Positions 30,290 through 49,448 of a stretch of 50,425 nt of DNA are shown here, piece after piece. The DNA is from an uncultured Bacteroidota bacterium (GTDB lineage Bacteria; Bacteroidota; Bacteroidia; Flavobacteriales; Flavobacteriaceae). Where the stretch lies: contig CACMZR010000010.1 in NCBI GenBank assembly GCA_902618245.1, forward strand, positions 1-50,425, given 5' to 3'. The notes under the pieces are model-generated. The model ran no database searches. It had not been told where the DNA came from and saw nothing but the letters and a program-made list of their open reading frames with translations. The first letter of the stretch is position 1; every line of letters starts with the position of its first letter. A program made the position numbers and the translations under genes.

Positions 30290-31968
30290 TAATAAAACAT
30301 TTTAAAATTAAATTTCTTTATTGGCACCATGTATGACTCAGCAAATTTCTTGGAATCTAATTCCATTATTTTTCTTTTATTTTTAGTAAGATTTGAAAGT
30401 TCAAAAATTGATTTTATAAAATCTTTTGATGACTTAACTTCTTTCTTCAATGGGGTTTTGTGATTTAAAAAAGGATCAAAGTTAAATTTATCAATATCTA
30501 ATCTAATAACAGGAAGAGAGCACAAAAGAGACTCAATTGAGGCGCTTGAAGAAATATATACCATTATATCAGCCCATTTAAATTCCTCGTATAGAGTATT
30601 CCTTGATATAAAATGAACCTTTTTTTTTATCCAATTTTGAGATAACCTATCCAACACAGTGATTGGGAAGTTAGGATGAAATCTAAATTTGTATTTAAAA
30701 TTGTATTTGATAGGTATTTCTTTCAATAATTTAATTGTTTTAATTATTTCATCTTTACTAGAAGAAAAAACAAACAATAATTTAGCATTATCGGCTGCAA
30801 AAAAATCTCTAACTAAAGGTTTATTTTGAAAAGTTCTTAGAGCTACACCTTGTATTATCTTTTTTGGAGGAAAATTACACCTTTTTATCAACCAATTTTT
30901 AGTAATCTTACCAACGGTAACTATCTTGTCTGGTAGTGGTGTTTTATTTATTTCTGTTTTGGAGAATTGAAAAGATAAATGCGAGGGTGTTATCGATGTA
31001 TGTTGATATCCTATTTTCTTTATTTTATTCGATAATCCCAATGATAGAAACTTCTCCATAGGCTTATTTTCAAATGGATATATTATTTTTTCTAAAAATC
31101 TATTTGAGTTTAACCTTCTAAAGGCTTTAAACAAAAGTAAATTTTCAATAATGCCTCTAGGAATTTCTTCAATCATATTTTCTCTGATAATTTTATGTAA
31201 TAATATCGATTGAGAATTATATTTAAAGTCTATCTTTTTTATTTTGAAAAAATAAATTTTAATTATTTGAATAAAGCACCACAAATAATCTTGAATCTTA
31301 AGATAGCTAAATATATAATGATGAGGCGCTTTCTCATTTTTTAGTATTTTACTCATTTTGTAAAATGGTCGATATAGATAATATAAATATCCTATTGATG
31401 TATTTGAATTTTGTTTCTCGATTAAGTTTTTCAAGTTACCAAAATATGGATCATTTATTTTTCTATTAGTTCCGTCAATAAATGTAAAAAGAAGAATTTC
31501 ATGCTGATTTTCATATGTTTTTTTAAATGAAAAAAAGATAAATACCTGAATCAATCTAATTATAACTTTAAAAAAATTTAATACCCTCGTGAAAAAAGAG
31601 ATAAAAAAGTTCAAAAAAAATAACATAACCTCATTGCCAGTACTGAAATATTGAAATAAGATTTTTTTTTGAGCATTACTGAATTTTTTGTAGTCTTCAG
31701 GATTAAAAATTCCATCCCTTTCTAAATCTAGTACTGCTAATACATCAATTATTTTTGTGACAACAGTAGTATTTAGCGGACTCTTGGAGCTAAAATTAAA
31801 AGCCCACCACAAATAATTTGAATTTAAGACATTAAGATCTGAGAGATAAGAATTTACTTTATTTAAGTAAAAATCCTGATTATTTTTTACAAACAAAAAG
31901 AGCTTTTTTTGTTTGGAAATAAAGTTCTGATTTGATTTTGACTTTTTATCTTTTTTAAAATGTTGCAT
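30289..31968 (-). CDS. putative GT-B-like surface carbohydrate biosynthesis protein
   Basis: A 559-residue protein resembling, by general pattern, the surface carbohydrate biosynthesis family TIGR04326. The N-terminal half is basic with one hydrophobic stretch near residues 118-146. The C-terminal half looks like a GT-B donor domain: K-K-I-G-Y-Q-H-T-S near 317, P-D-K-I-V-T-V-G-K-I-T near 347, L-L-F-V-F-S-S-S-K-D near 398, F-R-F-H-P-N-F-P near 430, then S-S-S-A-S-I-E-S-L-L-C-S-L-P-V-I-R near 478, a pattern found in Kdo- and CDP-polyol-type transferases. It may transfer the CMP-ulosonic acid made by its neighbours. Function is inferred. Confidence 0.6.
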   Translation of the reverse strand: MQHFKKDKKSKSNQNFISKQKKLFLFVKNNQDFYLNKVNSYLSDLNVLNSNYLWWAFNFSSKSPLNTTVVTKIIDVLAVLDLERDGIFNPEDYKKFSNAQKKILFQYFSTGNEVMLFFLNFFISFFTRVLNFFKVIIRLIQVFIFFSFKKTYENQHEILLFTFIDGTNRKINDPYFGNLKNLIEKQNSNTSIGYLYYLYRPFYKMSKILKNEKAPHHYIFSYLKIQDYLWCFIQIIKIYFFKIKKIDFKYNSQSILLHKIIRENMIEEIPRGIIENLLLFKAFRRLNSNRFLEKIIYPFENKPMEKFLSLGLSNKIKKIGYQHTSITPSHLSFQFSKTEINKTPLPDKIVTVGKITKNWLIKRCNFPPKKIIQGVALRTFQNKPLVRDFFAADNAKLLFVFSSSKDEIIKTIKLLKEIPIKYNFKYKFRFHPNFPITVLDRLSQNWIKKKVHFISRNTLYEEFKWADIMVYISSSASIESLLCSLPVIRLDIDKFNFDPFLNHKTPLKKEVKSSKDFIKSIFELSNLTKNKRKIMELDSKKFAESYMVPIKKFNFKMFY

Positions 31969-32941
31969 TTTCCAAAGATTTCAAAATTTGAGCCACTTTA
32001 TAACGTTTCACATGCATATTATCGGAAATATATGAATTGGGATTATCAGTTAAAACATACTCAAAAGAAGGAAAATAAAATACTCCTTTATGTTTTGGGA
32101 TAATTTCGTGCAATACTGCTCTTAAAATACATTTACCCGCAAAAGCTTGAGAGATTATATTACGTTTAAAAAAAGTAGCATACTCTGGGACTGGACTTAC
32201 GGTTATAATTATTTTTAAAGTTGGGTTAAACTCTTTTAAAGTTTTTATAATACTATTTAAATCATTTGTGTTTTGAACAAATGTATTTTCAACAATTCTA
32301 AACCTTTTACTATTTTTTCTAAAACTTATAGGGGGTGTTCTCCCCCACACTATTTCCATTTTTGAATCATACCAAAATTCATTTTGCCCAACAGTTATTA
32401 TTAATATATCCGTTTTTCTAAAAACTTCCCTACTGAGTTTTCTATGACTTTTTATATTAAGAATCGCTTCTTTTTTTGAATTAAATGATCCAATGCTATA
32501 TTCCCTTAAGGGGTCAAAAAAAAGATTTTTGTACTGCTCAACAAAAATTGGAACTTCTTTTTCATCGGTTGAGTAAGAAATGATTTGTAATAAATTTTTT
32601 AAAGTGTAGACTCGTCCCCAATTTGCTGAAAAATTAAAGATATTTTTTTCAAGATTTATATATGTTAATTTTTCTTCTTGATTTTTAAAATGTATTGCAA
32701 TTTCCTCTGCAAAACATGTCCCTAAAGAAGCTATTTTTGATTTCTCTGATATATTTATTTCTTTAAGTCTTTGTTCAGCATCAATATTTAGAATCTTAAT
32801 TAAATTTTTCCCACTAGGATAAATTTGAGTATTCAATAAATCATTCTTTTTATCTTCTATGATATCCCGAGGGATATGTCTTTTAATATCTTCTATATTA
32901 TCTTTTATTAAATCTTTTATTGATCTAATTATTTTTTTCAT
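31955..32941 (-). CDS. GSCFA family protein (SGNH-like hydrolase/acyl esterase)
   Basis: A 328-residue protein of the GSCFA family, named for its motif, seen here as L-G-T-C-F-A-E-E-I near residue 70. A later V-G-Q-N-E-F-W-Y and a C-terminal S-D-N-M-H-V-K resemble blocks of SGNH/GDSL-type hydrolases, with Cys or Ser near the first motif and His near the last. Members are often in polysaccharide loci and are suspected to add or remove acyl groups, but this is not firmly established. It overlaps the KdsB-like gene by four bases and the downstream gene by 14. Confidence 0.78.
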   Translation of the reverse strand: MKKIIRSIKDLIKDNIEDIKRHIPRDIIEDKKNDLLNTQIYPSGKNLIKILNIDAEQRLKEINISEKSKIASLGTCFAEEIAIHFKNQEEKLTYINLEKNIFNFSANWGRVYTLKNLLQIISYSTDEKEVPIFVEQYKNLFFDPLREYSIGSFNSKKEAILNIKSHRKLSREVFRKTDILIITVGQNEFWYDSKMEIVWGRTPPISFRKNSKRFRIVENTFVQNTNDLNSIIKTLKEFNPTLKIIITVSPVPEYATFFKRNIISQAFAGKCILRAVLHEIIPKHKGVFYFPSFEYVLTDNPNSYISDNMHVKRYKVAQILKSLENATF

Positions 32942-33705
32942 CGTTTGATTATCTTTTTAAAGATTTTTTTTTGATCTAAATTTTTGTTTAGTATTTCTTT
33001 TACTATGGCTAATTCTTTTTCAGTATTGACTGATGGGAAGTTTTTAGGAAGTACAATTGCTTTTATTTTATATCCGTGTTCAATTGCTTTCATTTGTTCA
33101 ATTGATTCTAATTTAGCAAATGGAGTATCATTTAAATTCACTAATTCATTCAGAAAATTGCATTCATAAGCAATTAATCCTTGAATTTTAAATAAAATGT
33201 TTTTAAAATTTGTAAACTCAGAGAAAATTGGGGTTTTTCTAAAAAATGAAATGATATGATTATTAGAATCTATAATACATTTAACTAAAGAATGTTTATC
33301 AATATTATTCATATCATCAAATCTTGTAACTCCATTCCACATTTTTTCAGATCTAGTTTTCACCATCTGACGAGCGAAAATATCAATGTAATTTGGTATT
33401 AAAAGTGGCTCATCTCCTTGAACTAAAATAACGTGACTGCATTCCATACAAGAAATTGCTTCAGCTATTCTATAGGTCCCATTTTTGTGATTTTTTTTAG
33501 TTAGTATTACTTTTCCTCCATTAAATTCTATTACGTTTTTTATTTCTTTGTCACCAGTAGCAATATATACCTCTTTTACACTTTTAGATAACATTGCTCT
33601 TCTTCTAACATGTTCAATCATTGGAAGGCCATCAATGTCAATTAACATTTTTCTTCCTAATCTTACAGAAGCTAAATGAGCAGGAATAATTATTACAATA
33701 TCCAT
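32938..33705 (-). CDS. KdsB-like CMP-ulosonate cytidylyltransferase
   Basis: A 255-residue nucleotidyltransferase similar to CMP-Kdo synthetase. It starts I-I-I-P-A-H-L-A-S-V-R-L-G-R-K-M-L, close to the KdsB P-A-R-x-x-S-x-R-x-P-x-K motif but with His for the first Arg and Gly for Pro. Also present are G-L-P-M-I-E-H-V-R-R-R-A near 26 and the nucleotide/metal loop V-Q-G-D-E-P-L-L near 94. The C-terminal F-P-S-V-N-T-E-K-E-L matches the end of KdsB. With KdsA nearby it should activate a Kdo-like acid; the changed residues leave the exact substrate open. It overlaps GSCFA by four bases. Confidence 0.85.
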   Translation of the reverse strand: MDIVIIIPAHLASVRLGRKMLIDIDGLPMIEHVRRRAMLSKSVKEVYIATGDKEIKNVIEFNGGKVILTKKNHKNGTYRIAEAISCMECSHVILVQGDEPLLIPNYIDIFARQMVKTRSEKMWNGVTRFDDMNNIDKHSLVKCIIDSNNHIISFFRKTPIFSEFTNFKNILFKIQGLIAYECNFLNELVNLNDTPFAKLESIEQMKAIEHGYKIKAIVLPKNFPSVNTEKELAIVKEILNKNLDQKKIFKKIIKR

Positions 33706-33711
33706 TATAAT

Positions 33712-34464
33712 TTATTGGGGCAATACTCCGCAATCAATATTAATACATTGCCCTGTAATCGCACTAGATTTATCTGAGGCCAAGTACAAACATGTTTGAC
33801 CAACTTCTGATGCTGTTGGCATTCTTGACAGGGCAGCATTTGATTTTGCAAAGTTCAAAATAAAAGTTGATGGATCCCCTTTTCCTGGAGCATAATCCAT
33901 ATCAAGAGCTTCAATAAGTCCATCTGTTGATATAAGAACAGGACATACTGCATTAACTCTAATATTCCTAGGGCCAAGCTCTTTTGCTAAAGATTGGGTT
34001 AGACCGTTAACTCCAAACTTTGAAGCCACGTAAGCAGAATTATTACTTGAACCTCTTTTGCCTGCTAGACTTGAGATATTAATAATTGATCCCTTTGATT
34101 TCATTACTTTTGCTGCAGCTTTACAGCCCCAAAAATAACCTTTGAGATTAGTGTCTAACAAATCCCCCAAAAAAGCATCGTCTATTTCGGAAATTGGTTT
34201 CCAAAAAGAATAACCCGCATTGTTTATATAAACATCTAAATTGCCAAATTTTTTAATTGCAATATCAACTAAAGAATGATGAGAATCTTCTTTACGGACA
34301 TCCGTCTTTATAAAAATAACTCTGTCGCCAAAAATATTACTCAATTTCAAATCTTGTCTTGCACCAACTATAACAACGTAACCTGCATTGATAAACGCTT
34401 TAGTGATTCCCAGTCCTATACCTCTATTACCTCCAGTAACTATTGCTACTTTATCTTTCCCCAT
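33712..34464 (-). CDS. short-chain dehydrogenase/reductase (second of tandem pair)
   Basis: A 250-residue classical SDR. ATG at 34464 is preferred to TTG at 34482 because it starts M-G-K-D-K-V-A-I-V-T-G and lies two bases after the upstream stop. The cofactor site is T-G-G-N-R-G-I-G near residues 10-17, N-N-A-G-Y near 83, catalytic Ser in I-N-I-S-S-L-A-G, and Y-V-A-S-K near 148. P-V-L-I-S-T-D and the closing N-I-D-C-G-V fit the family. The substrate is unknown. It is paired with another SDR and lies between an aldolase and a KdsB-like gene, so a keto or hydroxy group of the ulosonic acid or its precursor is the likely target. Confidence 0.85.
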   Translation of the reverse strand: MGKDKVAIVTGGNRGIGLGITKAFINAGYVVIVGARQDLKLSNIFGDRVIFIKTDVRKEDSHHSLVDIAIKKFGNLDVYINNAGYSFWKPISEIDDAFLGDLLDTNLKGYFWGCKAAAKVMKSKGSIINISSLAGKRGSSNNSAYVASKFGVNGLTQSLAKELGPRNIRVNAVCPVLISTDGLIEALDMDYAPGKGDPSTFILNFAKSNAALSRMPTASEVGQTCLYLASDKSSAITGQCINIDCGVLPQ

Positions 34465-34466
34465 AA

Positions 34467-35243
34467 TTAAATAGTCATACAAGAATAACCCCCGTCAACT
34501 GTAATCTCTGCACCAGTAACAAAACTTGAAGCATCAGATGCTAACCATAATATTGCACCTGTCAATTCTTCAGTTTTCCCAAAGCGATTCATTGGTGTGT
34601 GTCCTAAAATTGCTTTTTTTCTGTCTTCGTCAATGAAGTTTTTCAAGTTCCATTTTGTCGGAAAAAATCCTGGTCGAATGGCATTTACACGAACACCCTT
34701 TGTTCCCCATTCTCTTCCTAAATTCTGAGTTAAATTTTTTATACTTGCCTTGGCAGCCGAATATGTAAATGCTTTTGATAATGGTGGTCCTGCAGAAGCG
34801 GAAGATATATTTATAATAGAACCTTTTTTGTTGTTAAGCATGTACTCTCCAAAAACTTGACAACCATAAAAAGTTCCTTTTATTTGTGAATCCATAATGC
34901 CATCCCATTCATCTTTTTCAATCTCTAAAAAAGGAGTTGATCCATTCGTTCCAGCACCATTTATAAGTATGTCCAATTTACCAAATTTGTTAATTATTTC
35001 ATTTAGAACCCTATAATGATCTTCCTTTTTGGAAACATCCAAAGCTAAAGAAATTGTCTCCTTAAAACCTTCTTTTAAAATATCTTCTTCAACTTTTGTA
35101 GCCTTTTGAAGTCTTAAATCAATTATAGCAACTTTACATCCTGCCCTTGCAAAAGATTTGGCCATTTCACTGCATAGGTGACCACCTGCGCCTATGATAG
35201 CAGACACTTTCCCTTTCAAATTAAATAATTTATCTATATACAT
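34467..35243 (-). CDS. short-chain dehydrogenase/reductase (first of tandem pair)
   Basis: A 258-residue SDR. The cofactor loop is altered: I-G-A-G-G-H-L-C in place of the usual T-G-x-x-x-G-I-G. The remaining elements are normal: I-N-G-A-G-T near 91, catalytic Ser in I-N-I-S-S-A-S-A-G, Y-S-A-A-K near 157, R-P-G-F-F-P-T and the end V-D-G-G-Y. The enzyme is probably an active oxidoreductase. It is a different subfamily from the neighbouring SDR, so the pair may act in sequence on one substrate (oxidation then reduction would give an epimer). It overlaps the aldolase gene by 14 bases. Confidence 0.85.
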   Translation of the reverse strand: MYIDKLFNLKGKVSAIIGAGGHLCSEMAKSFARAGCKVAIIDLRLQKATKVEEDILKEGFKETISLALDVSKKEDHYRVLNEIINKFGKLDILINGAGTNGSTPFLEIEKDEWDGIMDSQIKGTFYGCQVFGEYMLNNKKGSIINISSASAGPPLSKAFTYSAAKASIKNLTQNLGREWGTKGVRVNAIRPGFFPTKWNLKNFIDEDRKKAILGHTPMNRFGKTEELTGAILWLASDASSFVTGAEITVDGGYSCMTI

Positions 35244-36015
35244 TAATTAATTTTTTCATTTGTTCAGACCATTTCCACAAAACAAATAAGTCAGAACCTA
35301 AAATTACATATGTGTACCCTAAATCAAAAAGGCCTTTTATATTTTTTTCATTAGGGTCAGCAATTTGAGTTCCACAACTTTTTGAATACTTTTCACAAGC
35401 AGTAATAACTTTTTTAGATGCTTCAATTACTTTAGGATGATCTGTTTGTCCAGGAAAACCTAATGATCCAGATATATCATATGGCCCAACCATTACTCCA
35501 TCAACTTCGTCAAAAGATAGAAGTTTCTCAATATTATTAACTGACTCTATTGATTCAACTTGAATTATAAATGAAGAGTTTTGATTCCAACAAGTAATAT
35601 ATTCTTCAAAATCAAATCCATACCCTTGAGCTCTACTAACACCATAACTTCGTTTACCAATAGGGGGGTATTTAAAATTATCAATCAATCTCTTAACATC
35701 CTCTTGGGTATTTACCATCTGAATTAACATTCCATCAGCTCCAGATTCTAAGAGTGGTTTTATATAATCATTTGAATGAGATACAGGTCTAGGAAGGCAA
35801 GGGACTCCTTCAGCTTGAGAAGCAGCTATAATTCGTTGGGCTTCTGCTTGATTTATTGTAGAATGTTCCATATCTATAGCAATAAAATCGAATCCTGCCT
35901 TAGCAATGGTTTCAGTAATTGAGGGGTGGGCGAAAGAAACCCATCCAGCGAATAAACGTTCTCTATTTCTTAAAGCTTTCTTTAATTTTAATTGTCTTTG
36001 TTTCTGAATAGCCAT
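35230..36015 (-). CDS. HpcH/HpaI family 2-keto acid aldolase
   Basis: A 261-residue class II pyruvate aldolase of the HpcH/HpaI family, which join or split pyruvate and an aldehyde. Motifs are F-A-G-W-V-S-F-A-H-P-S-I near residue 22, F-I-A-I-D-M-E-H-S near 44 (conserved D-x-E-H), G-A-D-G-M-L-I-Q-M-V near 92 and V-G-P-Y-D-I-S-G-S-L-G near 170. Relatives include 2-dehydro-3-deoxyglucarate and rhamnonate aldolases. In a Kdo-like locus it could make a different 2-keto-3-deoxy acid or control the pool of one. Such a gene is not part of the standard Kdo pathway. It overlaps the downstream SDR gene. Confidence 0.88.
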   Translation of the reverse strand: MAIQKQRQLKLKKALRNRERLFAGWVSFAHPSITETIAKAGFDFIAIDMEHSTINQAEAQRIIAASQAEGVPCLPRPVSHSNDYIKPLLESGADGMLIQMVNTQEDVKRLIDNFKYPPIGKRSYGVSRAQGYGFDFEEYITCWNQNSSFIIQVESIESVNNIEKLLSFDEVDGVMVGPYDISGSLGFPGQTDHPKVIEASKKVITACEKYSKSCGTQIADPNEKNIKGLFDLGYTYVILGSDLFVLWKWSEQMKKLINVYR

Positions 36016-36029
36016 AGATTCACATTTTA

Positions 36030-36419
36030 TTATATTAATTTTTTAACCGCAGGATGTAAATGTAGTAGGCCAAACAATTTTTTATTTTTATCTATAACTG
36101 GTAAATCCCAAATTTGTTTTTCACCCATAAGATTTACAATCTTTTTTAATTCATCGTCTGGTTTACATGTAATTGGATTTTTTTTTGCGTGAATTAAAGC
36201 ATCATCAATAAAAAAAGAAGAGAAAGGCTTCTGCACTTCTAGTAATTTTCTTCTTAAATCTCCATCCGTAATCAAACCAATCAATTCTCTTTTATCATTA
36301 ATTATACAAACCAAGCCAAGGCCAGCTTGACCCATTTCGGTCAAAGCTTCTTTAAGAATTGTTTTTTTATTTACTATTGGGAAATCACCAAAAGGAATCA
36401 TTACATCATTTACTTTCAT
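36030..36419 (-). CDS. stand-alone CBS-domain pair of KpsF/KdsD type
   Basis: A 129-residue protein made of two CBS domains only. It matches the C-terminal half of KdsD/KpsF arabinose-5-phosphate isomerases: V-M-I-P at the start, L-I-G-L-I-T-D-G-D-L-R-R near residues 46-55, N-P-I-T-C-K-P-D near 86, and L-P-V-I-D-K-N ... L-F-G-L-L-H-L-H near 107-122. The catalytic SIS domain that precedes them in KdsD is absent; the upstream base sequence is taken by kdsA, ten bases away. It may regulate KdsA or another pathway enzyme by binding a nucleotide. It is intact at both ends rather than an obvious gene fragment. Confidence 0.85.
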   Translation of the reverse strand: MKVNDVMIPFGDFPIVNKKTILKEALTEMGQAGLGLVCIINDKRELIGLITDGDLRRKLLEVQKPFSSFFIDDALIHAKKNPITCKPDDELKKIVNLMGEKQIWDLPVIDKNKKLFGLLHLHPAVKKLI

Positions 36420-36422
36420 AAC

Positions 36423-37307
36423 TTAAGAATTTGTAGGATGAACGTTATCATCCCCTAATTTATTTAAAATTTCGATACGTAGTTGATGAAGTTTTTTTGC
36501 TTGATATAAAATATTTTCCAAATATTTTAAGTCTAAAACTGTATTTGAATCAGATAAAGCCTTAGCGGGGTTGTCATGAACTTCCATAAATAATAAATTT
36601 ATGCCATTAGCAACAGCAGATCTTACCAAATAGGGTATAAACTCTCTTTGCCCTCCTGATATATTACCCATAGATGTAGGAAGCTGAATTGAATGTGTAG
36701 CATCATAACAAACCGGATAACCTGTCGAAGCCATTATAGGAAAAGATGTCATGTCGTTAACTAGCATATTGTAGCCCATAAAAGTTCCTCTCTCAGTTAG
36801 AATAATTTTTTTATTACCAAAAGATTCGAGTTTTCTACAAGAGTTTTTCATATTCCAAGGACTCATAAATTGCCCTTTTTTTAATAGAATTGGCCTATTA
36901 GTTCTTGCAGCAGCTCTCAAAATTGAAGTTTGCCTACATAAATAAGCTGGTACTTGAACTAAATCGCAAACCTCTCCTGTTAGATCAGCCCAAGATGGAT
37001 CAGAAAAGTCTGACACAACAGGAACTTTATAAAGGCGTCTAACTTCAGACAAAATTTCCAATCCCTTTTCGATTCCTACACCATGAAAACTTTTAGGTGA
37101 GGACCTACAATCCTTGTCATAACAAGATTTATAAATCCATTGAATTTTTAATTTATCACAAATTTTTTTAATTGAAGCTGCCATAAATAAAGCATGGTCT
37201 CTATTTTCAATGGCACATGGCCCCCCAACAAAAACAAGAGGGTTTTGACCACCTATTTTTATTTTTTCAACATCTCCATATCCTACTTTAACTATTTTTT
37301 TATTCAT
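36423..37307 (-). CDS. kdsA: 3-deoxy-8-phosphooctulonate synthase (Kdo-8-P synthase)
   Basis: Condenses phosphoenolpyruvate with arabinose-5-phosphate, or a related aldose phosphate, to a Kdo-type 2-keto-3-deoxy acid phosphate. The 294 residues include G-G-P-C-A-I-E (Cys31), K-S-C-Y-D-K-D-C-R-S-S, Q-V-P-A-Y-L-C-R-Q-T and T-H-S-I-Q-L-P. Cys31, His205, Glu242 and Asp253 fit the metal ligands of the metal-dependent class (Aquifex type); E. coli KdsA has Asn at the first place. Several phosphate-site segments differ from E. coli, so the acceptor may not be arabinose-5-phosphate. A housekeeping kdsA is expected elsewhere in such genomes, making this a locus-specific copy (inference). It opens the Kdo-like run after a 63-base gap. 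Confidence 0.92.
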   Translation of the reverse strand: MNKKIVKVGYGDVEKIKIGGQNPLVFVGGPCAIENRDHALFMAASIKKICDKLKIQWIYKSCYDKDCRSSPKSFHGVGIEKGLEILSEVRRLYKVPVVSDFSDPSWADLTGEVCDLVQVPAYLCRQTSILRAAARTNRPILLKKGQFMSPWNMKNSCRKLESFGNKKIILTERGTFMGYNMLVNDMTSFPIMASTGYPVCYDATHSIQLPTSMGNISGGQREFIPYLVRSAVANGINLLFMEVHDNPAKALSDSNTVLDLKYLENILYQAKKLHQLRIEILNKLGDDNVHPTNS

Positions 37308-37370: not shown

Positions 37371-38207
37371 CTATCCATGAAAAACATCAAATGAATTTTC
37401 CATATACTTAAATACAATTGGTCTAGCCATATAAAGTCTACTTTGAATTTTAATTATAGAATTAGTTTTATTAGAGCTTCTTTTATATGAATACTTATAA
37501 AATCCCATAGGCTCTATCTGGATTCTAGTTATAATTGTATTTGATTCACTTAATTCGTGAATAATCAACTTTTGTTTTCTATTGGTGGGGTTAATCCAAT
37601 AGAAATCATATGAATACCTTGCTAATAATCTATGTTGAATAAAGTATTTTTTTTTGAGAAAGCTAAAATTTCCGAGTTGTTTAATATTACCTATTGACTC
37701 TTTATAAATAGCGTCCAAATTACCATGAACATAACTTTTTATTGGCCCATAGAAATTATTTTCGTAACCTGTATAACCCCTTTCAGATAAAAAACAGTCA
37801 TAATCTTTTAACCAAATAGGTGGATTTTTATGTATTACAGCAAAGGTACCATCATGTTTTATATCCAAATTACCTGTGATTTCTTTAATATTTATTCTAT
37901 GTTTAAGATTCCGAATGTTTTTAATTTCAAATCTTTCAACTAGATCACCGGAATTATTAAAAAAAATTATTTCAACTTCAAAGATTTTATACTTTAAGTT
38001 ATCATTATCTATTAGATAGTTAACATTTAATAATTCAAAAAAAGTAGACCAATTATTTTCTATTCTATATAAAAATAAGTCACTTGTAACAGAGGAAGAG
38101 TGCTTTGGAATTTTAGATAATGTTATGCCCCTTTTGGAAATTAATTCCAAATATTTTGGGTTTATATTTTTTACAGCTGAATTTTTAATTTTTTTGTATA
38201 AATTCAT
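37371..38207 (-). CDS. unrecognised protein, second of tandem pair
   Basis: I do not recognise a family. The protein has 278 residues, no signal peptide and no membrane segment. It is rich in aromatic and beta-forming residues, with blocks such as P-P-I-W-L-K-D-Y-D-C-F-L-S-E-R-G-Y near 128-144, G-P-I-K-S-Y-V-H-G-N-L-D near 153, and R-L-Y-M-A-R-P-I-V-F-K-Y at 256-267 ahead of a terminal F-D-V-F-H-G. Its ATG overlaps the stop of the upstream unknown gene by one base, so the two are tightly coupled. The closing layout (aromatic strand, then F-x-x-x-H-G) recalls the end of its neighbour (F-T-L-H-G), so the two may be distant paralogues. A carbohydrate-modifying role is only suggested by location. 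Confidence 0.6.
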   Translation of the reverse strand: MNLYKKIKNSAVKNINPKYLELISKRGITLSKIPKHSSSVTSDLFLYRIENNWSTFFELLNVNYLIDNDNLKYKIFEVEIIFFNNSGDLVERFEIKNIRNLKHRINIKEITGNLDIKHDGTFAVIHKNPPIWLKDYDCFLSERGYTGYENNFYGPIKSYVHGNLDAIYKESIGNIKQLGNFSFLKKKYFIQHRLLARYSYDFYWINPTNRKQKLIIHELSESNTIITRIQIEPMGFYKYSYKRSSNKTNSIIKIQSRLYMARPIVFKYMENSFDVFHG

Positions 38208-38998
38208 TAAAACTTTAATTTATTAAACCAGCTGGTTTTAATTTTTTTTTGCACTTGGAATCTTGATCCATGTAATGTAAAGCTAGCAGGTGGGTGGGTG
38301 TGCTCCAATGACAGCATAGGTGCAGTTCTGTTTATTCCAAAACCAAAGGGGATTCCTGCCATATTTCTACAAATAAATGTAGGCAACTCATTTTTATTGA
38401 ATTCATATTTATTTAATGAAATAATGTTTGTATGATTGCTATAAACTTTTATTTTGTCAATAAATTTTTTCTTGTTGGGTAAATAAATTTCGATTTCTGA
38501 TGATCTTTGAATTGGAGAAGTTTCCAAGTTTACAAAAACAAAATAATTTTCAATATTAGTTTGTTGAACAAAAGGATGAAAAGTAAGCAAACTACCTTTT
38601 TCTGGAAATGGATTAATTTCACCTTGATAGCTAGTTTGAGATGATCCTAAACTAAATCCAACTGTTGCCCTCCATTCTGGCGTCTTTGTGAAAATAAATT
38701 GAGATTTAGGAAGAAGATTCATTTTTTTTGGAATATTATCATCTTTTCTAAGTTGAAGAATTACTAAATTAGAATCAATATTTTCATTCATAAATTTTAG
38801 ATTCTCCATTTCGACATTGAATGAGTCGCCGTATTTTATTTCACATATTTTTTTTGAGTTCCAGAGATTATCTCTGAGAAAAAATAACCAAAGTTTTTTA
38901 GTTTTTTTATGAGATTTTTCCCAATTATTGGGAGAAAAGTTGTGAACTGTACAAAAACCTTTTGTTTCTAGAATATTAAAAAGAGGGAAAAAAGACAT
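38207..38998 (-). CDS. unrecognised protein, first of tandem pair
   Basis: I do not recognise a family. ATG at 38998 gives 263 residues and leaves one base after the upstream stop; the frame can also start at 39037, which would overlap that gene by 38 bases. There is no signal peptide or membrane helix. The sequence looks beta-rich. The C-terminal block is striking: M-A-G-I-P-F-G-F-G-I-N-R near 219-230, then L-S-L-E-H-T-H-P-P-A-S-F-T-L-H-G at 235-250, with three histidines, a glutamate and an arginine close together. That could be a metal or carbohydrate site. Its pairing with the next gene and position between a methyltransferase and kdsA suggest a glycan-related function. Confidence 0.6.
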   Translation of the reverse strand: MSFFPLFNILETKGFCTVHNFSPNNWEKSHKKTKKLWLFFLRDNLWNSKKICEIKYGDSFNVEMENLKFMNENIDSNLVILQLRKDDNIPKKMNLLPKSQFIFTKTPEWRATVGFSLGSSQTSYQGEINPFPEKGSLLTFHPFVQQTNIENYFVFVNLETSPIQRSSEIEIYLPNKKKFIDKIKVYSNHTNIISLNKYEFNKNELPTFICRNMAGIPFGFGINRTAPMLSLEHTHPPASFTLHGSRFQVQKKIKTSWFNKLKF

Positions 38999-38999
38999 A

Positions 39000-39920
39000 T
39001 TATTTCTTAAAGATTGATCGTAGCCAAAGTGACTCATTTTTTTTAATTAGGTGAGCATCAAAATTTAAAAGTGCTTCAGTTGAATACTCATTATTTAAGA
39101 GCTCATTAATTTTTTTTCTCTTCCTATGATAAAATTTAATATCGAACTTGTAATAAAAAAAAACTCTTAATCTATTAAAAAATTTAAATAAAAGATTTTT
39201 AGTTTTTTTTATGGATGTGCCATAATAGTTCATTGAGAGAATTTCTAATCCTAATACATTTGATAATTTTTCCATTGGTTTTTTTGAGAAAAATAAAAGA
39301 TGTGGTTCACAAAGTTTTTTATACTTCCAATCATTACAGGGTACTTCGATAAATAAATTCCCTTTGGATTCTAAACAATTCACATACTGACTTAAAAATA
39401 CTACAGGTGACGATACATGTTCCAAAACATGGGAAATTACAATTAAATCAAATTTCAGGTTTCCTAGATTTTTATTTTCAATTATTTCTATGTTTAAATT
39501 CTTTAGTGATTTATAACAATTAATATCAGATTCTATTGCGAAGTATTTAGAATTTGGAAACTCACTTAACCACAAAGAAGCAAAATATCCTGGTCCTGGA
39601 CCAACTTCGAGGACATTTATTTTACTTTCATTTAGGACATTAATATTATCCTTTATCATAATTAATCTTAATTTTGACAAACCATAAAAAAATCCTTTTG
39701 TCTTAGCATCAGTTATTATTCCTCCATGTGCACTTTGGTGATAAGAATTATTATAATTATGTAGCTCTGATTCTTTTGGAGTGGGGTTGGCAAAATACAA
39801 TTCACATGAATTACATTTAACAATTTTACAATTACTGAAAATATCATTTTTATACGAATATTCTTGTATAAACTCGTTAGAATCCGAGTTACATAATGGG
39901 CACTTGATTACATTTAGCAT
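39000..39920 (-). CDS. SAM-dependent methyltransferase with N-terminal zinc-ribbon
   Basis: A 306-residue protein. Residues 6-36 are a Cys4 zinc-binding module (C-P-L-C near 7 and C-N-S-C near 36) followed by L-Y-F-A-N-P-T-P. The SAM-binding motif V-L-E-V-G-P-G-P-G-Y-F-A is near residues 103-114, and motif II/III reads L-I-V-I-S-H-V-L-E-H-V-S-S-P near 160. This arrangement is the common Methyltransf_23 type with a zinc-ribbon, frequent in polysaccharide loci and related to sugar C-methyltransferases. The acceptor is unknown. It follows the acyltransferase by one base and is followed directly by the tandem unknown genes. Confidence 0.85.
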   Translation of the reverse strand: MLNVIKCPLCNSDSNEFIQEYSYKNDIFSNCKIVKCNSCELYFANPTPKESELHNYNNSYHQSAHGGIITDAKTKGFFYGLSKLRLIMIKDNINVLNESKINVLEVGPGPGYFASLWLSEFPNSKYFAIESDINCYKSLKNLNIEIIENKNLGNLKFDLIVISHVLEHVSSPVVFLSQYVNCLESKGNLFIEVPCNDWKYKKLCEPHLLFFSKKPMEKLSNVLGLEILSMNYYGTSIKKTKNLLFKFFNRLRVFFYYKFDIKFYHRKRKKINELLNNEYSTEALLNFDAHLIKKNESLWLRSIFKK

Positions 39921-45611: not shown

Positions 45612-46652
45612 TTATTTATTTAATTTATCTAAAGACATTCTTGTTCCTCTTAAATAATTTTTATTAAAAGTACATCCCAAGATATCCTGTAAATATTTTG
45701 GATGAAGCCCATAACCAGGGCGGATTGATCTAACATTTTCATTAGTGATTAATTCTCCCTTTTTTACATTTTTTGTAATGTATAAAGATCTCGAAAAATT
45801 TCTTCCCTTTTTCTGTTTACTAGTTAACTCATAGTTTATTTCACCAACACATACCTCTGCTTCTCTAATTGATTTAACCATTTCACTGAATCCATTTTTA
45901 TCCAATGAAAAGCTTGCATCTGGCCCCCCTACAGATTTATCTAGAATGAAATGTTTTTCAATAATTTTAGCCCCCAAATTAACAGCAACTATTGGGGCTG
46001 TAATGCCGAGCGTGTGATCTGAAAGACCAGTTACAACTCCATATCTTTTTTTAAGATCTGGAATCATGATCAAATTAGCTTCGTTAATAGGTGCAGGATA
46101 ACTCGAAGTGCATTTTAGTAATGCTAAATTGCTATTACCTACTTCTTTGCATGTTGAAAGTGCCAAATCAATATCATTCATTGTTGCTATACCGGTTGAA
46201 ATAATCGTAGGCTTTCCTTTAGATGCTATGTATTGAATTAATGGTGTGTCGGTAATTTCAAATGATGCAATTTTGTATATTGGATTATCTAAATCTTCTA
46301 AAAAATCGACTGCAGTTTTATCAAAAGGTGATGAAAAGCATAATAAACCTTCTTCGTTTGCTACTCTAAACAATTCTTCATGCCATTCCCACGGAGTAAA
46401 CGCACTTTCATATAATTTGTAATAACTCTGTCCATCCCAAATTGAATTATTTTTTATTACAAAATCATTTCTTTCTGAATCTATGGTAATTGTATCAGGT
46501 CTATATGTTTGAAGCTTTACAGCATCCGCACCTGCTTTTTTTGCAGCACATATTGTTTTTATCGCTGTTGACAAAGAACCATTATGATTAGCTGAGAGCT
46601 CGGCGACAATTAATACTTTCTCTAATTCATTAAAATTTAAAAAATTAATCAT
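45612..46652 (-). CDS. pseI: pseudaminic acid synthase (PseI, NeuB superfamily)
   Basis: Condenses phosphoenolpyruvate with a 6-deoxy-HexNAc to give a nine-carbon nonulosonic acid. The protein has 346 residues. NeuB features are A-E-L-S-A-N-H-N-G-S near residue 17, A-D-A-V-K-L-Q-T-Y near 41, and I-E-K-H-F-I near 232. The PseI branch is suggested by T-P-W-E-W-H-E-E-L near 84 and C-F-S-S-P-F-D-K-T-A. A C-terminal SAF (antifreeze-like) domain occupies about 285-346. Its start overlaps the stop of the 62-residue small gene by eight bases. The other Pse enzymes are not in the window and may lie to the right. Confidence 0.92.
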   Translation of the reverse strand: MINFLNFNELEKVLIVAELSANHNGSLSTAIKTICAAKKAGADAVKLQTYRPDTITIDSERNDFVIKNNSIWDGQSYYKLYESAFTPWEWHEELFRVANEEGLLCFSSPFDKTAVDFLEDLDNPIYKIASFEITDTPLIQYIASKGKPTIISTGIATMNDIDLALSTCKEVGNSNLALLKCTSSYPAPINEANLIMIPDLKKRYGVVTGLSDHTLGITAPIVAVNLGAKIIEKHFILDKSVGGPDASFSLDKNGFSEMVKSIREAEVCVGEINYELTSKQKKGRNFSRSLYITKNVKKGELITNENVRSIRPGYGLHPKYLQDILGCTFNKNYLRGTRMSLDKLNK

Positions 46653-46833
46653 TGTTCTCTGAAAGTTTCTTTAAAAGGTCACCAATTTTTTTATCATCCT
46701 TATTGATTTTTTTAACAATATCCCTCGCTTCAGATGGAGCATGCTTAAATGCTAACCTCAAGATATTCATCCAATTTATATTATTTTTTGTTCTAACTTT
46801 TTCTATAGCATCTATGATCTCAAAATCTGTCAT
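46645..46833 (-). CDS. small 62-residue protein of nonulosonic-acid loci
   Basis: A small gene whose best start is ATG at 46833 (M-T-D-F-E-I-I-D-A-I-E-K-V-R), just after the formyltransferase stop at 46838; the frame runs on upstream, but only inside that gene. The 62 residues are charged and helical, with N-N-I-N-W-M-N-I-L-R-L-A-F near 18-30, A-P-S-E-A-R-D-I near 33, and a final K-I-G-D-L-L-K-K-L. No signal peptide or membrane segment is seen. It is probably a two- or three-helix cytosolic protein. I recall similar short proteins next to NeuB/PseI-type genes in other bacteria; the function is unknown. It overlaps pseI by eight bases. Confidence 0.7.
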   Translation of the reverse strand: MTDFEIIDAIEKVRTKNNINWMNILRLAFKHAPSEARDIVKKINKDDKKIGDLLKKLSENND

Positions 46834-46837
46834 TTTT

Positions 46838-47371
46838 TTATATTTTATTAATTTCAATGTTCCAGTCAATATTTTTTGGCAAATCTTTTTCTTTATGAAA
46901 TGACCCCTTCCCAATTTGTGGTTTGGGAACTATCTTATTTGTAATAATTTTATTAAAAGAATTGTAAAATAAATCCTCAATTGTTTTTTTTAATTTCATG
47001 TAGCTTGATAATAAAGTATCTGCTTCCGTAAATACTTGTTTTTTCTGAACTAAAATTGGCCCCGTATCAATCCCTTTGTCCATAAAATGAATTGTAACTC
47101 CTTTAGGTGTCTTTTCTTTAAAACTCCAATAATTAGGGTGAGCCCCTCTATTAAATGGTAAATAAGAAATGTGCAAATTTATAATAGGGTTTTTCAAATT
47201 GTCTATATGATTTTTTGAAATTATATGCCTGTACCCATAAGAAACAATCCAATCAAACTTTTGATAGTTTAAATATTCAAGTTTTTTATTATGAAAGTAT
47301 GTCTCTCCATATTTAGATAAAAATGAGAACATTTTTTTATTTTGCTTTTCACCCAAATAAAGGATATTCAC
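46838..47371 (-). CDS. formyltransferase family protein
   Basis: A 177-residue protein with the catalytic core of formyltetrahydrofolate-dependent formyltransferases. The motif N-L-H-I-S-Y-L-P-F-N-R-G-A-H-P is at about 86-100, with the Asn and His of the usual triad; V-T-I-H-F-M-D-K-G-I-D-T-G-P-I-L near 112-127 supplies the Asp. It lacks the C-terminal domain of methionyl-tRNA formyltransferase and so is a sugar-type enzyme, probably adding N-formyl to an amino sugar. The start is GTG at 47371. It stands between the class III aminotransferase and the small gene; the aminotransferase may supply the amino group it formylates. Confidence 0.88.
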   Translation of the reverse strand: MNILYLGEKQNKKMFSFLSKYGETYFHNKKLEYLNYQKFDWIVSYGYRHIISKNHIDNLKNPIINLHISYLPFNRGAHPNYWSFKEKTPKGVTIHFMDKGIDTGPILVQKKQVFTEADTLLSSYMKLKKTIEDLFYNSFNKIITNKIVPKPQIGKGSFHKEKDLPKNIDWNIEINKI

Positions 47372-47372
47372 T

Positions 47373-48680
47373 TTAATTTAATCTTTGAAAACCATTATGT
47401 GCAATTTTACTATCTAGAAGATTGTCAATATTTAACTCTCCATCAATACATTTTTTTATATTAAAAAAAATTTCATCTAAAACTTCTGAGTAATTGTCTA
47501 TAACTTTATAAGTATGTGCTGTAGATGCATAAAAACTCGTCGTTGCCAAATAACCCTTTTTCAGAAATTCTTGTGTTAAATATGTTTTAAATTTTTGAGC
47601 ATCTTTATTTTCAAAACTAAATGAACTGATGGATGGTAAGCCACTTATCTTAATATTTACCTCATATTTTTTTGAAGAAAATTTCCATTTTTCCTGCATG
47701 TAATTACCTAAGGCAGTGATTATTTCCCAAGACTTTTCTCTTTCCATTATCTCTAAGGTTTTTAGGGCAGCTGTTGGACCTATCCTTTCGGTCCAAAAAG
47801 TGCTGCTTATAAATGTTTTTTGAGCTGCTTCCATAACACTTCTTTTTCCAACAACAGCAGTTATAGCGTATCCATTACCTAGAGCTTTTCCGTACATAGC
47901 TATGTCAGGCTCAACATTAAACTTTTGATGAATACCTCCAAATGTTTCTCTAAATCCTGAGGTACATTCATCAAAAATTAAAACAATCCCTTTTTTTGTA
48001 GCTAATTGTCTGACATCATCCAAAAATCTATCCTTAGGTTCGATATTTCTGACCACTTCCATTTTTATAATACCAATTTTGTGCTCTTCAATTATTTTTT
48101 TCAGGTAATCAATATCATTATAATTGAATGGAAAAACAGTATTTTCAAGACCTTTAGGAACACCTGCAGGATTCAACCCTGATAAAAGATGATTTGAAAG
48201 ATCATTCCCATTATTATGATTTGCAGAAAGATACCAATCATGCCATCCATGATAACCACATATTGCAATTTTATCATTACCCGAAGCTGCCCTAGCAATT
48301 CTTATAGCAACAGAATTTGCCTCTCCACCAGTTCTAGCAAATCTAACCATGTCTGCCCATGGATTAATTTCAATCAATCTCTCAGCTAATAAAACTTCCT
48401 CTGGGCAATTTAATGTGCTCATATTACCTAGTTTTAAAATTTCATTAACTGCGTTATCTACCTCATTATTCCTATACCCAAGAGCATTTGTACCCACACT
48501 CATTGTAGAACAATCAAAATATTTTACCCCATCTAAATCCCAGACTTCACATCCAATAGCCTTATTAAAGTATGACGGCCATAAATCTGGTAAAAACATT
48601 TCAGGTCTTTTAGATAAAAGCATTGTTCCTCCAGGTATTAATTTTTTTGCTTTATTGTATAAGTTCTGTCCTTTAAACAT
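47373..48680 (-). CDS. class III PLP-dependent aminotransferase (HemL-like)
   Basis: A 435-residue class III aminotransferase related to glutamate-1-semialdehyde aminomutase. Features are I-P-G-G-T near residue 15, V-R-F-A-R-T-G-G-E-A-N-S-V-A near 112-125, Y-H-G-W-H-D-W-Y near 143-150, Asp237 in L-I-F-D-E-C-T-S-G-F-R, and the PLP lysine Lys265 in Y-G-K-A-L-G-N-G. It is unlikely to be HemL itself because of its setting with CMP-sugar genes. It probably puts an amino group on a sugar or sugar-acid intermediate for the nonulosonic-acid product. It lies one base before the formyltransferase. Confidence 0.9.
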   Translation of the reverse strand: MFKGQNLYNKAKKLIPGGTMLLSKRPEMFLPDLWPSYFNKAIGCEVWDLDGVKYFDCSTMSVGTNALGYRNNEVDNAVNEILKLGNMSTLNCPEEVLLAERLIEINPWADMVRFARTGGEANSVAIRIARAASGNDKIAICGYHGWHDWYLSANHNNGNDLSNHLLSGLNPAGVPKGLENTVFPFNYNDIDYLKKIIEEHKIGIIKMEVVRNIEPKDRFLDDVRQLATKKGIVLIFDECTSGFRETFGGIHQKFNVEPDIAMYGKALGNGYAITAVVGKRSVMEAAQKTFISSTFWTERIGPTAALKTLEIMEREKSWEIITALGNYMQEKWKFSSKKYEVNIKISGLPSISSFSFENKDAQKFKTYLTQEFLKKGYLATTSFYASTAHTYKVIDNYSEVLDEIFFNIKKCIDGELNIDNLLDSKIAHNGFQRLN

Positions 48681-48694
48681 TTTATCAAAATAAT

Positions 48695-49447
48695 TTATTT
48701 GTACATACTTTCATAGCCTTTTATAGTAAATTGGTAAACCAATTCTTTTAGGCTTTTATTTTCATCTAAAAAACCTATTACATCTTCTAGAATTATGTTA
48801 GGGGCTTGATGACAAAATTCCTTATAGATTTTTCTACAAACAACAAGATCTTCTGGATTATCAACAGTCAATCTAAGATCTTTGCGATTTAATCGCTTTG
48901 GGGCCATAATTTTTTTTACTTTGAATGAGTGAATGTTTTCCCTTATAAATAATGTGCACATTTCCGAACGATGTCTGCTATTACCTTTTTTGTGTGATAG
49001 TTCTAAAGCATTTAATTTGATAAATTCAAATCCACACCCATCAATGATTTCATCATAAAAAGTTGCATCATTATCATCATTACAATGTGCTACCCATGAT
49101 TTTTCTACTGCCTTGTAATATAAAAAGGGAGATTCACTAGTTACTCTAAAAACATCAGTACCTTCTTCCTCCTTACATGCGAGAATAAGCCTAGATAAAA
49201 CATCTATCTCATCTCCAGTTATGTATTTAATTCTTTTCTCTTTTGCTATTTTTTTAAAAATGTCATTTTCCTTACCCTCGCTAATAGCTAAAACAATTGA
49301 ATTAATTGATTTGATTGTCTTCAAACAGTCGATTATATTATCAATTACTCTAATTCCTTTGTCTATATCCAAGTTCTGGATAGGTTTCCCAAACAAACGT
49401 GAACCTTGATTTCTGCATGCTAATACAGCTACTAATTTTCTACTCAT
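48695..49447 (-). CDS. SpsF/NeuA-like cytidylyltransferase
   Basis: A 250-residue nucleotidyltransferase. The N-terminal nucleotide site L-A-C-R-N-Q-G-S-R-L-F-G-K-P is at residues 9-22, the pattern seen in SpsF-like enzymes rather than the P-A-R-G-G-S of NeuA. R-V-T-S-E-S-P-F near 97 corresponds to the R-x-T-x-D-x-P segment, with Ser-Glu-Ser replacing the metal aspartate region. R-L-T-V-D-N-P-E-D-L near 193 is conserved too. It should activate the acid made by the adjoining NeuB-like synthase with CTP. It is separated from the NeuB-like gene by one base. Confidence 0.87.
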   Translation of the reverse strand: MSRKLVAVLACRNQGSRLFGKPIQNLDIDKGIRVIDNIIDCLKTIKSINSIVLAISEGKENDIFKKIAKEKRIKYITGDEIDVLSRLILACKEEEGTDVFRVTSESPFLYYKAVEKSWVAHCNDDNDATFYDEIIDGCGFEFIKLNALELSHKKGNSRHRSEMCTLFIRENIHSFKVKKIMAPKRLNRKDLRLTVDNPEDLVVCRKIYKEFCHQAPNIILEDVIGFLDENKSLKELVYQFTIKGYESMYK

Positions 49448-49448
49448 A

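Follow-up and report, generated by a model that had tools for sequence, protein, structure and literature searches.

A KdsA-like synthase clade with a free-standing CBS partner and an optional aldolase-dehydrogenase module, a candidate route to a CMP-ulosonic acid other than Kdo

We analyzed a stretch of 50,425 nucleotides from an uncultured Flavobacteriaceae bacterium (contig CACMZR010000010.1 of assembly GCA_902618245.1), hereafter called the window, in which six adjacent genes resemble part of the pathway for 3-deoxy-D-manno-oct-2-ulosonic acid (Kdo). The synthase of this cassette, which we call KdsA', belongs to a clade apart from canonical KdsA and is followed directly by a free-standing pair of CBS domains. 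The cassette recurs in many genomes, in which an aldolase and two short-chain dehydrogenases/reductases (SDR1 and SDR2) are an optional addition. From these observations we infer, with moderate confidence, an isomerase-free route that would lead from a central aldose phosphate to a 3-deoxy-ulosonic acid other than Kdo, activated with cytidine monophosphate (CMP) and used in a surface polysaccharide.

The six genes lie in one unbroken run on the minus strand at 32938-37307, as had been described in an earlier reading of the DNA without database searches (hereafter the sequence-only reading), and adjacent open reading frames overlap or are 3-14 bases apart (Table 1). From 37307 downward they encode a KdsA-like synthase, a CBS pair, an HpcH/HpaI aldolase, two SDRs and a KdsB-like cytidylyltransferase. 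The labels proposed at that stage agree with Pfam and NCBIfam family scans (DAHP_synth_1/KDO8P synthase, CBS, HpcH_HpaI, two short-chain dehydrogenases and CTP_transf_3). The listed start of SDR2 is a TTG, and the ATG at 34464, just past the stop of SDR1, seems the more likely true start.

We compared 81 KdsA' sequences with 33 canonical KdsA (27 from the order of the window's genome, four from plasmid records, one from the locus L090 and that of Escherichia coli, whose numbering is used here). In a quick unrooted tree with long branches among the canonical rows, the 81 KdsA' make up one side of a branch with a support of 100 in the Shimodaira-Hasegawa-like approximate likelihood-ratio test (SH-aLRT). 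The KANRS motif, which governs the choice and orientation of arabinose 5-phosphate (A5P), reads KDCRS in KdsA'. The substitutions S57C, A61D, H97S and V179N occur in all 81 KdsA', F117Y in 80 of 80, and N62C in 76 of 81 (S in four, G in one), while position 252 is N in 78 of 81. In canonical sequences, S57, N62 and H97 are invariant (33 of 33), position 61 is A in 31 (D in one, E in one), position 117 is F in 32 (Y in one), and position 252 is varied (A in 22, P in seven, others in four); the canonical exceptions to the diagnostic columns are the one D61 and the one Y117. S57 and H97 presumably lie near A5P. In its own numbering, the KdsA' of the window has D66, C67, S102 and Y122 among the changed residues. 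The 13 catalytic residues that we checked (the metal cysteine, K55, K60, R63, S64, D95, Q113, R120, K138, R168, H202, E239 and D250) are all kept in 81 of 81 KdsA', and the residues that bind phosphoenolpyruvate (PEP), metal and phosphate in the KDO8P/DAHP synthase superfamily are present. Six of the 13 are named as key in passages of PMC6650799, a study that modelled inhibitors of the enzyme from Neisseria (numbered as E. coli minus 5); these passages also name the residues corresponding to N62 and F117 on the A5P side. The changes of KdsA' thus appear to sit in and near the A5P pocket. Phosphate-binding residues that are kept, together with a sugar side that has been switched, are as expected for a synthase of a different aldose phosphate.

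When GTDB genomes were scanned with an alignment of three KdsA' sequences, 84 loci were confirmed and 80 of these kept (65-98% identity), a lower bound since the scan demanded one of two exact peptides. With the caution that taxon labels of metagenome-assembled genomes (MAGs) can mislead, the loci belong to Pseudomonadota (55), Cyanobacteriota (9, all Prochlorococcus), Bacteroidota (8), Nitrospirota (2) and five other phyla (one each), and one is unassigned; Pelagibacteraceae, SAR116 and flavobacterial genomes are among the carriers. We classed as long the loci with aldolase and SDR1 (41, plus four that are long but cut), as short those with kdsB at most 800 bases from kdsA' and no aldolase (21), and as mid those with kdsB further away and no aldolase (7), the last seven forming an undetermined class. 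The sequence-only reading had called for a search for the same six-gene order in other genomes. With inserts allowed, the order kdsA'-CBS-aldolase-SDR1-SDR2-kdsB recurs on one strand in 35 of the 41 long loci, the remaining six being incomplete, cut or rearranged. In 19 of the 35, more than 400 bases are inserted somewhere between CBS and kdsB, often a methyltransferase gene. The CBS gene lies 1-163 bases downstream of kdsA' on the same strand in 79 of the 80 loci; in the remaining one (L102) the contig stops 35 bases past kdsA'. The gene order is not due to chance, given the frequency of this adjacency and of the six-gene order, and plain contamination was ruled out by the recurrence of the same order in many genomes.

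Hence, the common core is KdsA' directly followed by the free CBS pair, and aldolase-SDR1-SDR2 is an optional add-on. The claim that an aldolase and two oxidoreductases had been added to a Kdo-like set holds insofar as they are present, but they form an optional module on a smaller core, KdsA'-CBS-KdsB. The key novelty is therefore KdsA' itself, and not the added enzymes. The layout label changes 12 times on the quick KdsA' tree, which suggests that the long module was probably gained or lost repeatedly. At an E-value of 1e-40, the aldolase was absent from all 25 short and mid genomes searched (a set without L074, L109 and L116) and present in five long-form control genomes. Among the other genomes, G181 and G211, both with loci of the undetermined class, have it elsewhere in the genome, G186 has an uncertain match at 40%, and none was found in G196 at the same threshold. 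An SDR1-like gene follows kdsB in L109, which was classed as short. We considered whether the aldolase and the SDRs supply the substrate of KdsA' and ruled this out, because the short forms have no aldolase.

The motif alignments, from which short rows were dropped, retained 45 of 46 rows for the aldolase, 42 of 43 for SDR1, 37 of 38 for SDR2, 78 of 80 for CBS and 63 of 66 for KdsB. All 45 aldolase rows keep the motifs IDMEH, PR, QxE and GPxD, which we take to hold the catalytic His, the Arg and the metal-binding Glu and Asp. The YxxxK motif and the catalytic Ser are kept in the 42 SDR1 rows (as YSxxK) and in the 37 SDR2 rows. The best NCBIfam matches of the aldolase are the HpaI and GarL models, both below cut-off. 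Among 149 relatives of the window's genome, searched at E-values of 1e-50 for the aldolase and 1e-60 for SDR1, close copies of both (at least 74% identity) were found only in the three genomes with KdsA' and in none of the other 146; two more relatives have weaker aldolase matches (33-36% identity).

The CBS protein of the window matches only part of TIGR00393, the KpsF/GutQ model (Table 1), and by this match corresponds to the C-terminal part of KdsD/GutQ, the SIS isomerase domain being absent. It is the only TIGR00393 match in the window's genome (1.83 Mb, 85.8% complete), where no SIS isomerase was found, in line with the earlier claim that KdsD, which is the isomerase for A5P, is missing. 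Of the 80 loci, two (L073 and L090) contain the SIS half of KdsD. In the latter, from an Acetobacteraceae, a canonical kdsA-kdsB-kdsD set lies 2-4 kb from KdsA'-CBS-KdsB, side by side with it. We searched 50 of the 80 KdsA' genomes for KdsD and KDO8P synthase: an isomerase scores over the cut-off in 25, two more have full-length matches just below it, and 29 have a second KDO8P synthase match, taken as canonical by family match alone. The nine Prochlorococcus genomes all have KdsA' alone, and their TIGR00393 matches cover the CBS part only. KdsC had also been reported as missing. It is absent from the cassette, but its absence from the cell is ruled out by a KdsC-family phosphatase encoded elsewhere in the genome (G000:C21:6342-6797, 150.5 bits for a cut-off of 106.95). 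A KdsC-like gene lies within 5 kb of kdsA' in 17 of the 80 loci, nine of them short forms, which suggests that the pathway intermediate would be a phosphate.

For the cytidylyltransferase, we aligned 65 rows (37 long-form and 28 short or mid, one row of less than 200 residues having been dropped from 66) with three canonical controls. The P-A-R motif, already noted as altered, reads P-A-H in the window. Its R10 is H in 28 of the 37 long-form rows (R in six, gap in three) and R in 27 of the 28 short or mid rows. Passages of PMC3149649 present R10 as a CTP-binding residue of KdsB, and D95 and D219 of the Aquifex aeolicus enzyme as the two conserved Asp ligands of Mg-A, D219 being called strictly conserved. 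The P-A-R change is thus a change of the CTP site, mostly not common to the short forms. The equivalent of D219 is D235 in E. coli KdsB, and the roseobacter-type canonical KdsB of L033 and L034 have N in place of this Mg-ligand Asp. All 37 long-form rows retain R15, K19, Q98, D100, E101 and P102. H181 and Y185, which presumably act on the sugar side, are both lost in these 37 rows (replaced by I, V, L or M), and H181 is also lost in 16 of the 28 short or mid rows. Both are kept in the three canonical rows and in all 12 rows of another kind of KdsB, type A, which forms its own group in a quick tree (where the three canonical rows do not group together). As KdsA' works with two kinds of cytidylyltransferase, these data suggest that the product is a Kdo-like C8 acid in some of the short forms and, in other loci, perhaps another compound.

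The genus of the window was sampled with 38 genomes (G000-G037), three of which carry the cassette (the window's own, G010 and G024). LpxC scores over the cut-off in 35 of the 38 and a KdsC-family phosphatase in 30, the window's genome included. WaaA (PF04413) was found in a single genome (G009) and not in that of the window, and a full KpsF/GutQ isomerase also in a single one (G023). When KdsA was searched in the 149 relatives, the matches in the genus were confined to the three cassette genomes, and members of other genera of the family mostly had a KdsA at ~37-41% identity. The genus thus seems to build lipid A without a Kdo route, and the cassette seems to be an acquired extra. In a comparison of 36423-37307 with L037, KdsA' is 98% identical to that of G010 and the preceding gene is 91% identical, but the following genes are only 43-79% identical, which suggests a recombination breakpoint at the border between kdsA' and CBS.

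We propose a pathway that would start with the condensation by KdsA' of PEP and an aldose phosphate needing no dedicated isomerase, most simply D-ribose 5-phosphate, which would yield the C5 epimer of Kdo 8-phosphate. Our first choice is ribose 5-phosphate, since this aldose phosphate is common in central metabolism and, as the C2 epimer of A5P, is otherwise the same molecule. The KdsC-family phosphatase encoded elsewhere would then strip the phosphate. In the long form only, the two SDRs and the pyruvate aldolase would remodel the free acid, which might for example be oxidised, inverted at C4 through a retro-aldol/aldol reaction and reduced again: HpcH/HpaI aldolases can break and remake a C3-C4 bond, and a pair of SDRs can oxidise and then re-reduce the neighbouring carbon. 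The long module would most plausibly invert centres of the free acid. Judging by its family, KdsB' would then attach CMP to the product, which would be transferred by a GT-B enzyme whose gene is nearby. With the isomerase lost, the CBS pair may have been reassigned to the new committed enzyme, where it would sense a nucleotide or the CMP-sugar end product and gate KdsA'. Considering the sugar-side changes in KdsA' and KdsB', the missing A5P isomerase and the rarity of WaaA in the genus, the product is probably not plain Kdo, in line with the sequence-only reading. A more specific version of the proposal is possible but doubtful: KdsA' would define a separate and widespread class of CMP-ulosonate pathways leading directly from ribose 5-phosphate to 3-deoxy-D-altro-oct-2-ulosonic acid, the C5 epimer of Kdo. 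The isomerase would have been deleted and its CBS sensor retained as a free regulator, and the add-on module would make a further new acid.

Several observations weigh against an isomerase-free route to a non-Kdo acid. The scarcity of KdsD among KdsA'-only genomes, which speaks for the route, depends on Prochlorococcus: full KdsD was found in 5 of the 21 genomes with KdsA' only vs. 22 of the 29 with a second KdsA (Fisher test, p = 0.00045, a 93-residue isomerase fragment in G177 being scored as absent), but p is 0.068 without the nine non-independent Prochlorococcus rows. Five KdsA'-only genomes thus do have the isomerase, and in L073 a full KpsF lies ~4 kb from KdsA' with no second KdsA found. 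Conversely, six genomes with a second KdsA have no KdsD and one has a fragment only, so the absence of KdsD is not specific to KdsA'-only genomes. Many KdsA' genomes are MAGs or single-amplified genomes, in which a missing KdsD can be due to incompleteness. The genome-wide profile search reported one CTP_transf_3 and the window has another, so that an absence is reliable for strong matches only. In G024 (58% complete), no match to the KdsC family scores over the cut-off. Among the cytidylyltransferases, the type A KdsB of 12 loci (mostly Rhodospirillales and Magnetococcales) has R10, H181, Y185 and D235 as in E. coli, and the product there may therefore be close to Kdo. Since R10H lies at the CTP site, nucleotide activation by the KdsB' of the window is only putative. 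We dropped D235N as a mark of KdsB', because this N, present in the window and in 35 of 37 long-form rows (two gaps), is also found in two of the three canonical control rows. Finally, ribose 5-phosphate as the substrate is a guess based on parsimony, not evidence.

Some of these points would fit a cassette that makes ordinary CMP-Kdo for a capsule or O-antigen, with KdsA' and KdsB' as divergent copies and A5P supplied by an unrecognised isomerase. The KdsA' of the window passes two of the three NCBIfam cut-offs for KDO8P synthase, one of them narrowly (317.9 vs. 314), the 12 loci that pair KdsA' with a KdsB of canonical residues include several that also have KdsC, and KpsF is near KdsA' in L073. 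Yet the residue changes in and near the A5P pocket are fixed across several phyla (81 sequences), no isomerase turned up in 16 of the 21 KdsA'-only genomes, a second KDO8P synthase match accompanies KdsA' in 29 of the 50 genomes searched, and WaaA is present in only 1 of the 38 genomes of the genus. Hence, we regard ordinary Kdo as unlikely. A C7 acid made from erythrose 4-phosphate, or a C8 acid made from another central aldose phosphate and turned by the module into a heptulosaric or similar acid, would be in keeping with a synthase of the DAHP/KDO8P superfamily and with an aldolase that scores best, below the cut-offs, against HpaI and GarL, the substrates of which are diacids. Nevertheless, most of the length of KdsA' can be aligned with KDO8P synthases, R63, S64 and R120 are retained, and type A KdsB keeps the canonical residues that were checked, all of which favour a C8 product and make this account, in our opinion, very unlikely.

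The aldolase and the SDRs might also belong to a separate pathway, for a sugar or a substituent, whose genes are carried along with those for the ulosonic acid. Short forms do not have the module, and it is on the other strand in L049 and L055, upstream in L050 and elsewhere in the genome in G181 and G211. However, 35 of the 41 long loci have it between CBS and kdsB, all on one strand, and among the 149 relatives close copies of the aldolase and SDR1 occur only together with KdsA', so that we find such an independent pathway quite unlikely and retain the remodelling of the free ulosonic acid as the role of the module in the proposed non-Kdo route.

Among the closest known systems is the canonical Kdo pathway (KdsD, KdsA, KdsC and KdsB), with which the cassette shares a PEP-dependent synthase that is of the KDO8P synthase family and has its catalytic residues, a KdsB-family cytidylyltransferase, a CBS pair homologous to that of KdsD and, in the genome, a KdsC-family phosphatase. 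It differs in that no SIS isomerase was found, CBS is a separate gene, the motif of the A5P pocket is changed, KdsB' has neither H181 nor Y185, and the long form adds an aldolase and two SDRs; moreover, WaaA, which transfers Kdo to lipid A, was found in only 1 of the 38 genomes of the genus. Capsule Kdo sets, in which KpsF, KpsU and kdsA are in one locus, resemble the cassette in having Kdo-type genes within a surface polysaccharide locus, but here a CBS-only protein replaces KpsF, and L090 has a canonical set beside the KdsA' set. In the Kdo8N pathway (KdnA/KdnB), a Kdo-like acid is modified before CMP activation. This idea is common to our proposal, whereas the six cassette genes include neither an iron alcohol dehydrogenase nor a pyridoxal phosphate-dependent aminotransferase; a class III aminotransferase is encoded ~10 kb from the cassette, beside NeuB. 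Pathways of NeuB type for nonulosonic acids also proceed by PEP condensation and then CMP activation, and CBS modules occur in some of them, but the synthase of the cassette is of the KdsA family and the NeuB genes are separate, elsewhere in the window.

The cassette is part of a long region for surface polysaccharide, in which NeuB-type genes, glycosyltransferases and a flippase are also encoded. On the 3' side of kdsB lie a GSCFA protein, a large protein distantly related to TIGR04326 and a 2-oxoglutarate-Fe(II) oxygenase. Large proteins of a family that we call c6 directly follow kdsB in 26 of the 80 loci. The large protein of the window, two genes after kdsB, is 14-20% identical to this family, and D173, E300, E305, P346, E407 and H431 (of an HP motif) are invariant in 29 aligned sequences of c6 and the window. 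Its predicted model has a GT-B fold (predicted local distance difference test, pLDDT, 83.1), for which Foldseek gave TagF as the best match and WaaA among the others, all at low template modelling scores (0.26-0.42 by query length among the 50 matches listed). This fits a putative CMP-ulosonate transferase.

Table 1. Genes of the cassette and linked genes in the window
Feature	Coordinates	Strand	Basis
KdsA', variant 3-deoxy-ulosonate-phosphate synthase (predicted), KDCRS replacing KANRS	36423..37307	-	DAHP_synth_1, KDO8P synthase, clade, diagnostic columns
Free-standing CBS pair, proposed KdsA' regulator	36030..36419	-	TIGR00393 positions 155-268 only
HpcH/HpaI class II pyruvate aldolase, first gene of the optional module	35230..36015	-	Pfam HpcH_HpaI, motif residues
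SDR1	34467..35243	-	Best NCBIfam model D-mannonate oxidoreductase, score below model cut-off; YSxxK
SDR2	33712..34482	-	Family scans, SDR motifs
KdsB' (type B), cytidylyltransferase-like; R10H, H181I, Y185I, D235N vs. E. coli KdsB	32938..33705	-	CTP_transf_3, residue census, tree
GSCFA-family protein, linked gene	31955..32941	-	Pfam GSCFA; same position in G010 and G024
Candidate CMP-ulosonate transferase, GT-B fold, HP motif, distant to TIGR04326	30289..31968	-	Alignment, predicted model, Foldseek
Linked beta-rich protein directly upstream of kdsA'	37371..38207	-	Family c8

Upstream of kdsA', two adjoining proteins without Pfam match (278 and 276 residues) are encoded at 37371-39037. Families related to them, c11 and c8, are adjacent in 15 of the 80 loci, directly before the called kdsA' in 10 of these, and c8 is present in 16 of the 80. 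The model of c8 is beta-rich (pLDDT 86.7), and a Foldseek search of it against the PDB gave no convincing match. A second ulosonic-acid set lies at 45612-50345 of the window: besides a class III aminotransferase and a formyltransferase, it has two genes of the NeuB family and a cytidylyltransferase with a weak CTP_transf_3 match. The second CTP_transf_3 of the window, after that of KdsB', is at 48695-49447. The window may thus encode several CMP-ulosonic acids for one polysaccharide.

We also looked for the synthase in mobile elements. A scan of viral contigs with KdsA' found no relative. There were 110 plasmid records matching KdsA, the top one among the matches listed being a Legionella plasmid at 46.9%, and the four plasmid sequences taken into the tree all group among canonical KdsA. 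One plasmid record, the 16 kb NZ_CP061939.1 (L034, 'Bacillus velezensis plasmid' from sea water), has a proteobacterial-looking, roseobacter-type set for Kdo and dTDP-rhamnose and is probably a contaminant contig. Phage records matching KdsA numbered 14, with less than 60% identity among the matches listed; PQ898602.1 (Synechococcus phage S-SCSM2R) has genes annotated as KdsA and KdsB, the former 34% identical to KdsA'.

The sequence-only reading regarded the route as undescribed. This stands, in that full-text searches of the open-licence literature returned, among the titles and abstracts listed, no description of the KdsA' cassette, its motif or an isomer of Kdo. CMP-ulosonate pathways themselves are well known, and what appears to be new here is the synthase clade, its CBS-only partner and the aldolase-SDR-SDR add-on.

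Since KdsA' passes two of three family cut-offs, automatic annotation would probably label such genes as Kdo synthesis and could predict Kdo where there may be none. The residue set of KdsA' provides a simple test to separate it from canonical KdsA, and a natural variant of the KANRS motif would be a ready tool for the enzymology of aldose specificity. Surface sugars of such marine bacteria bear on phage adsorption and grazing. If the ribose 5-phosphate version of the route were true, Prochlorococcus and other organisms whose core is free of Kdo would have in it a counterpart of Kdo with which to decorate their surface.

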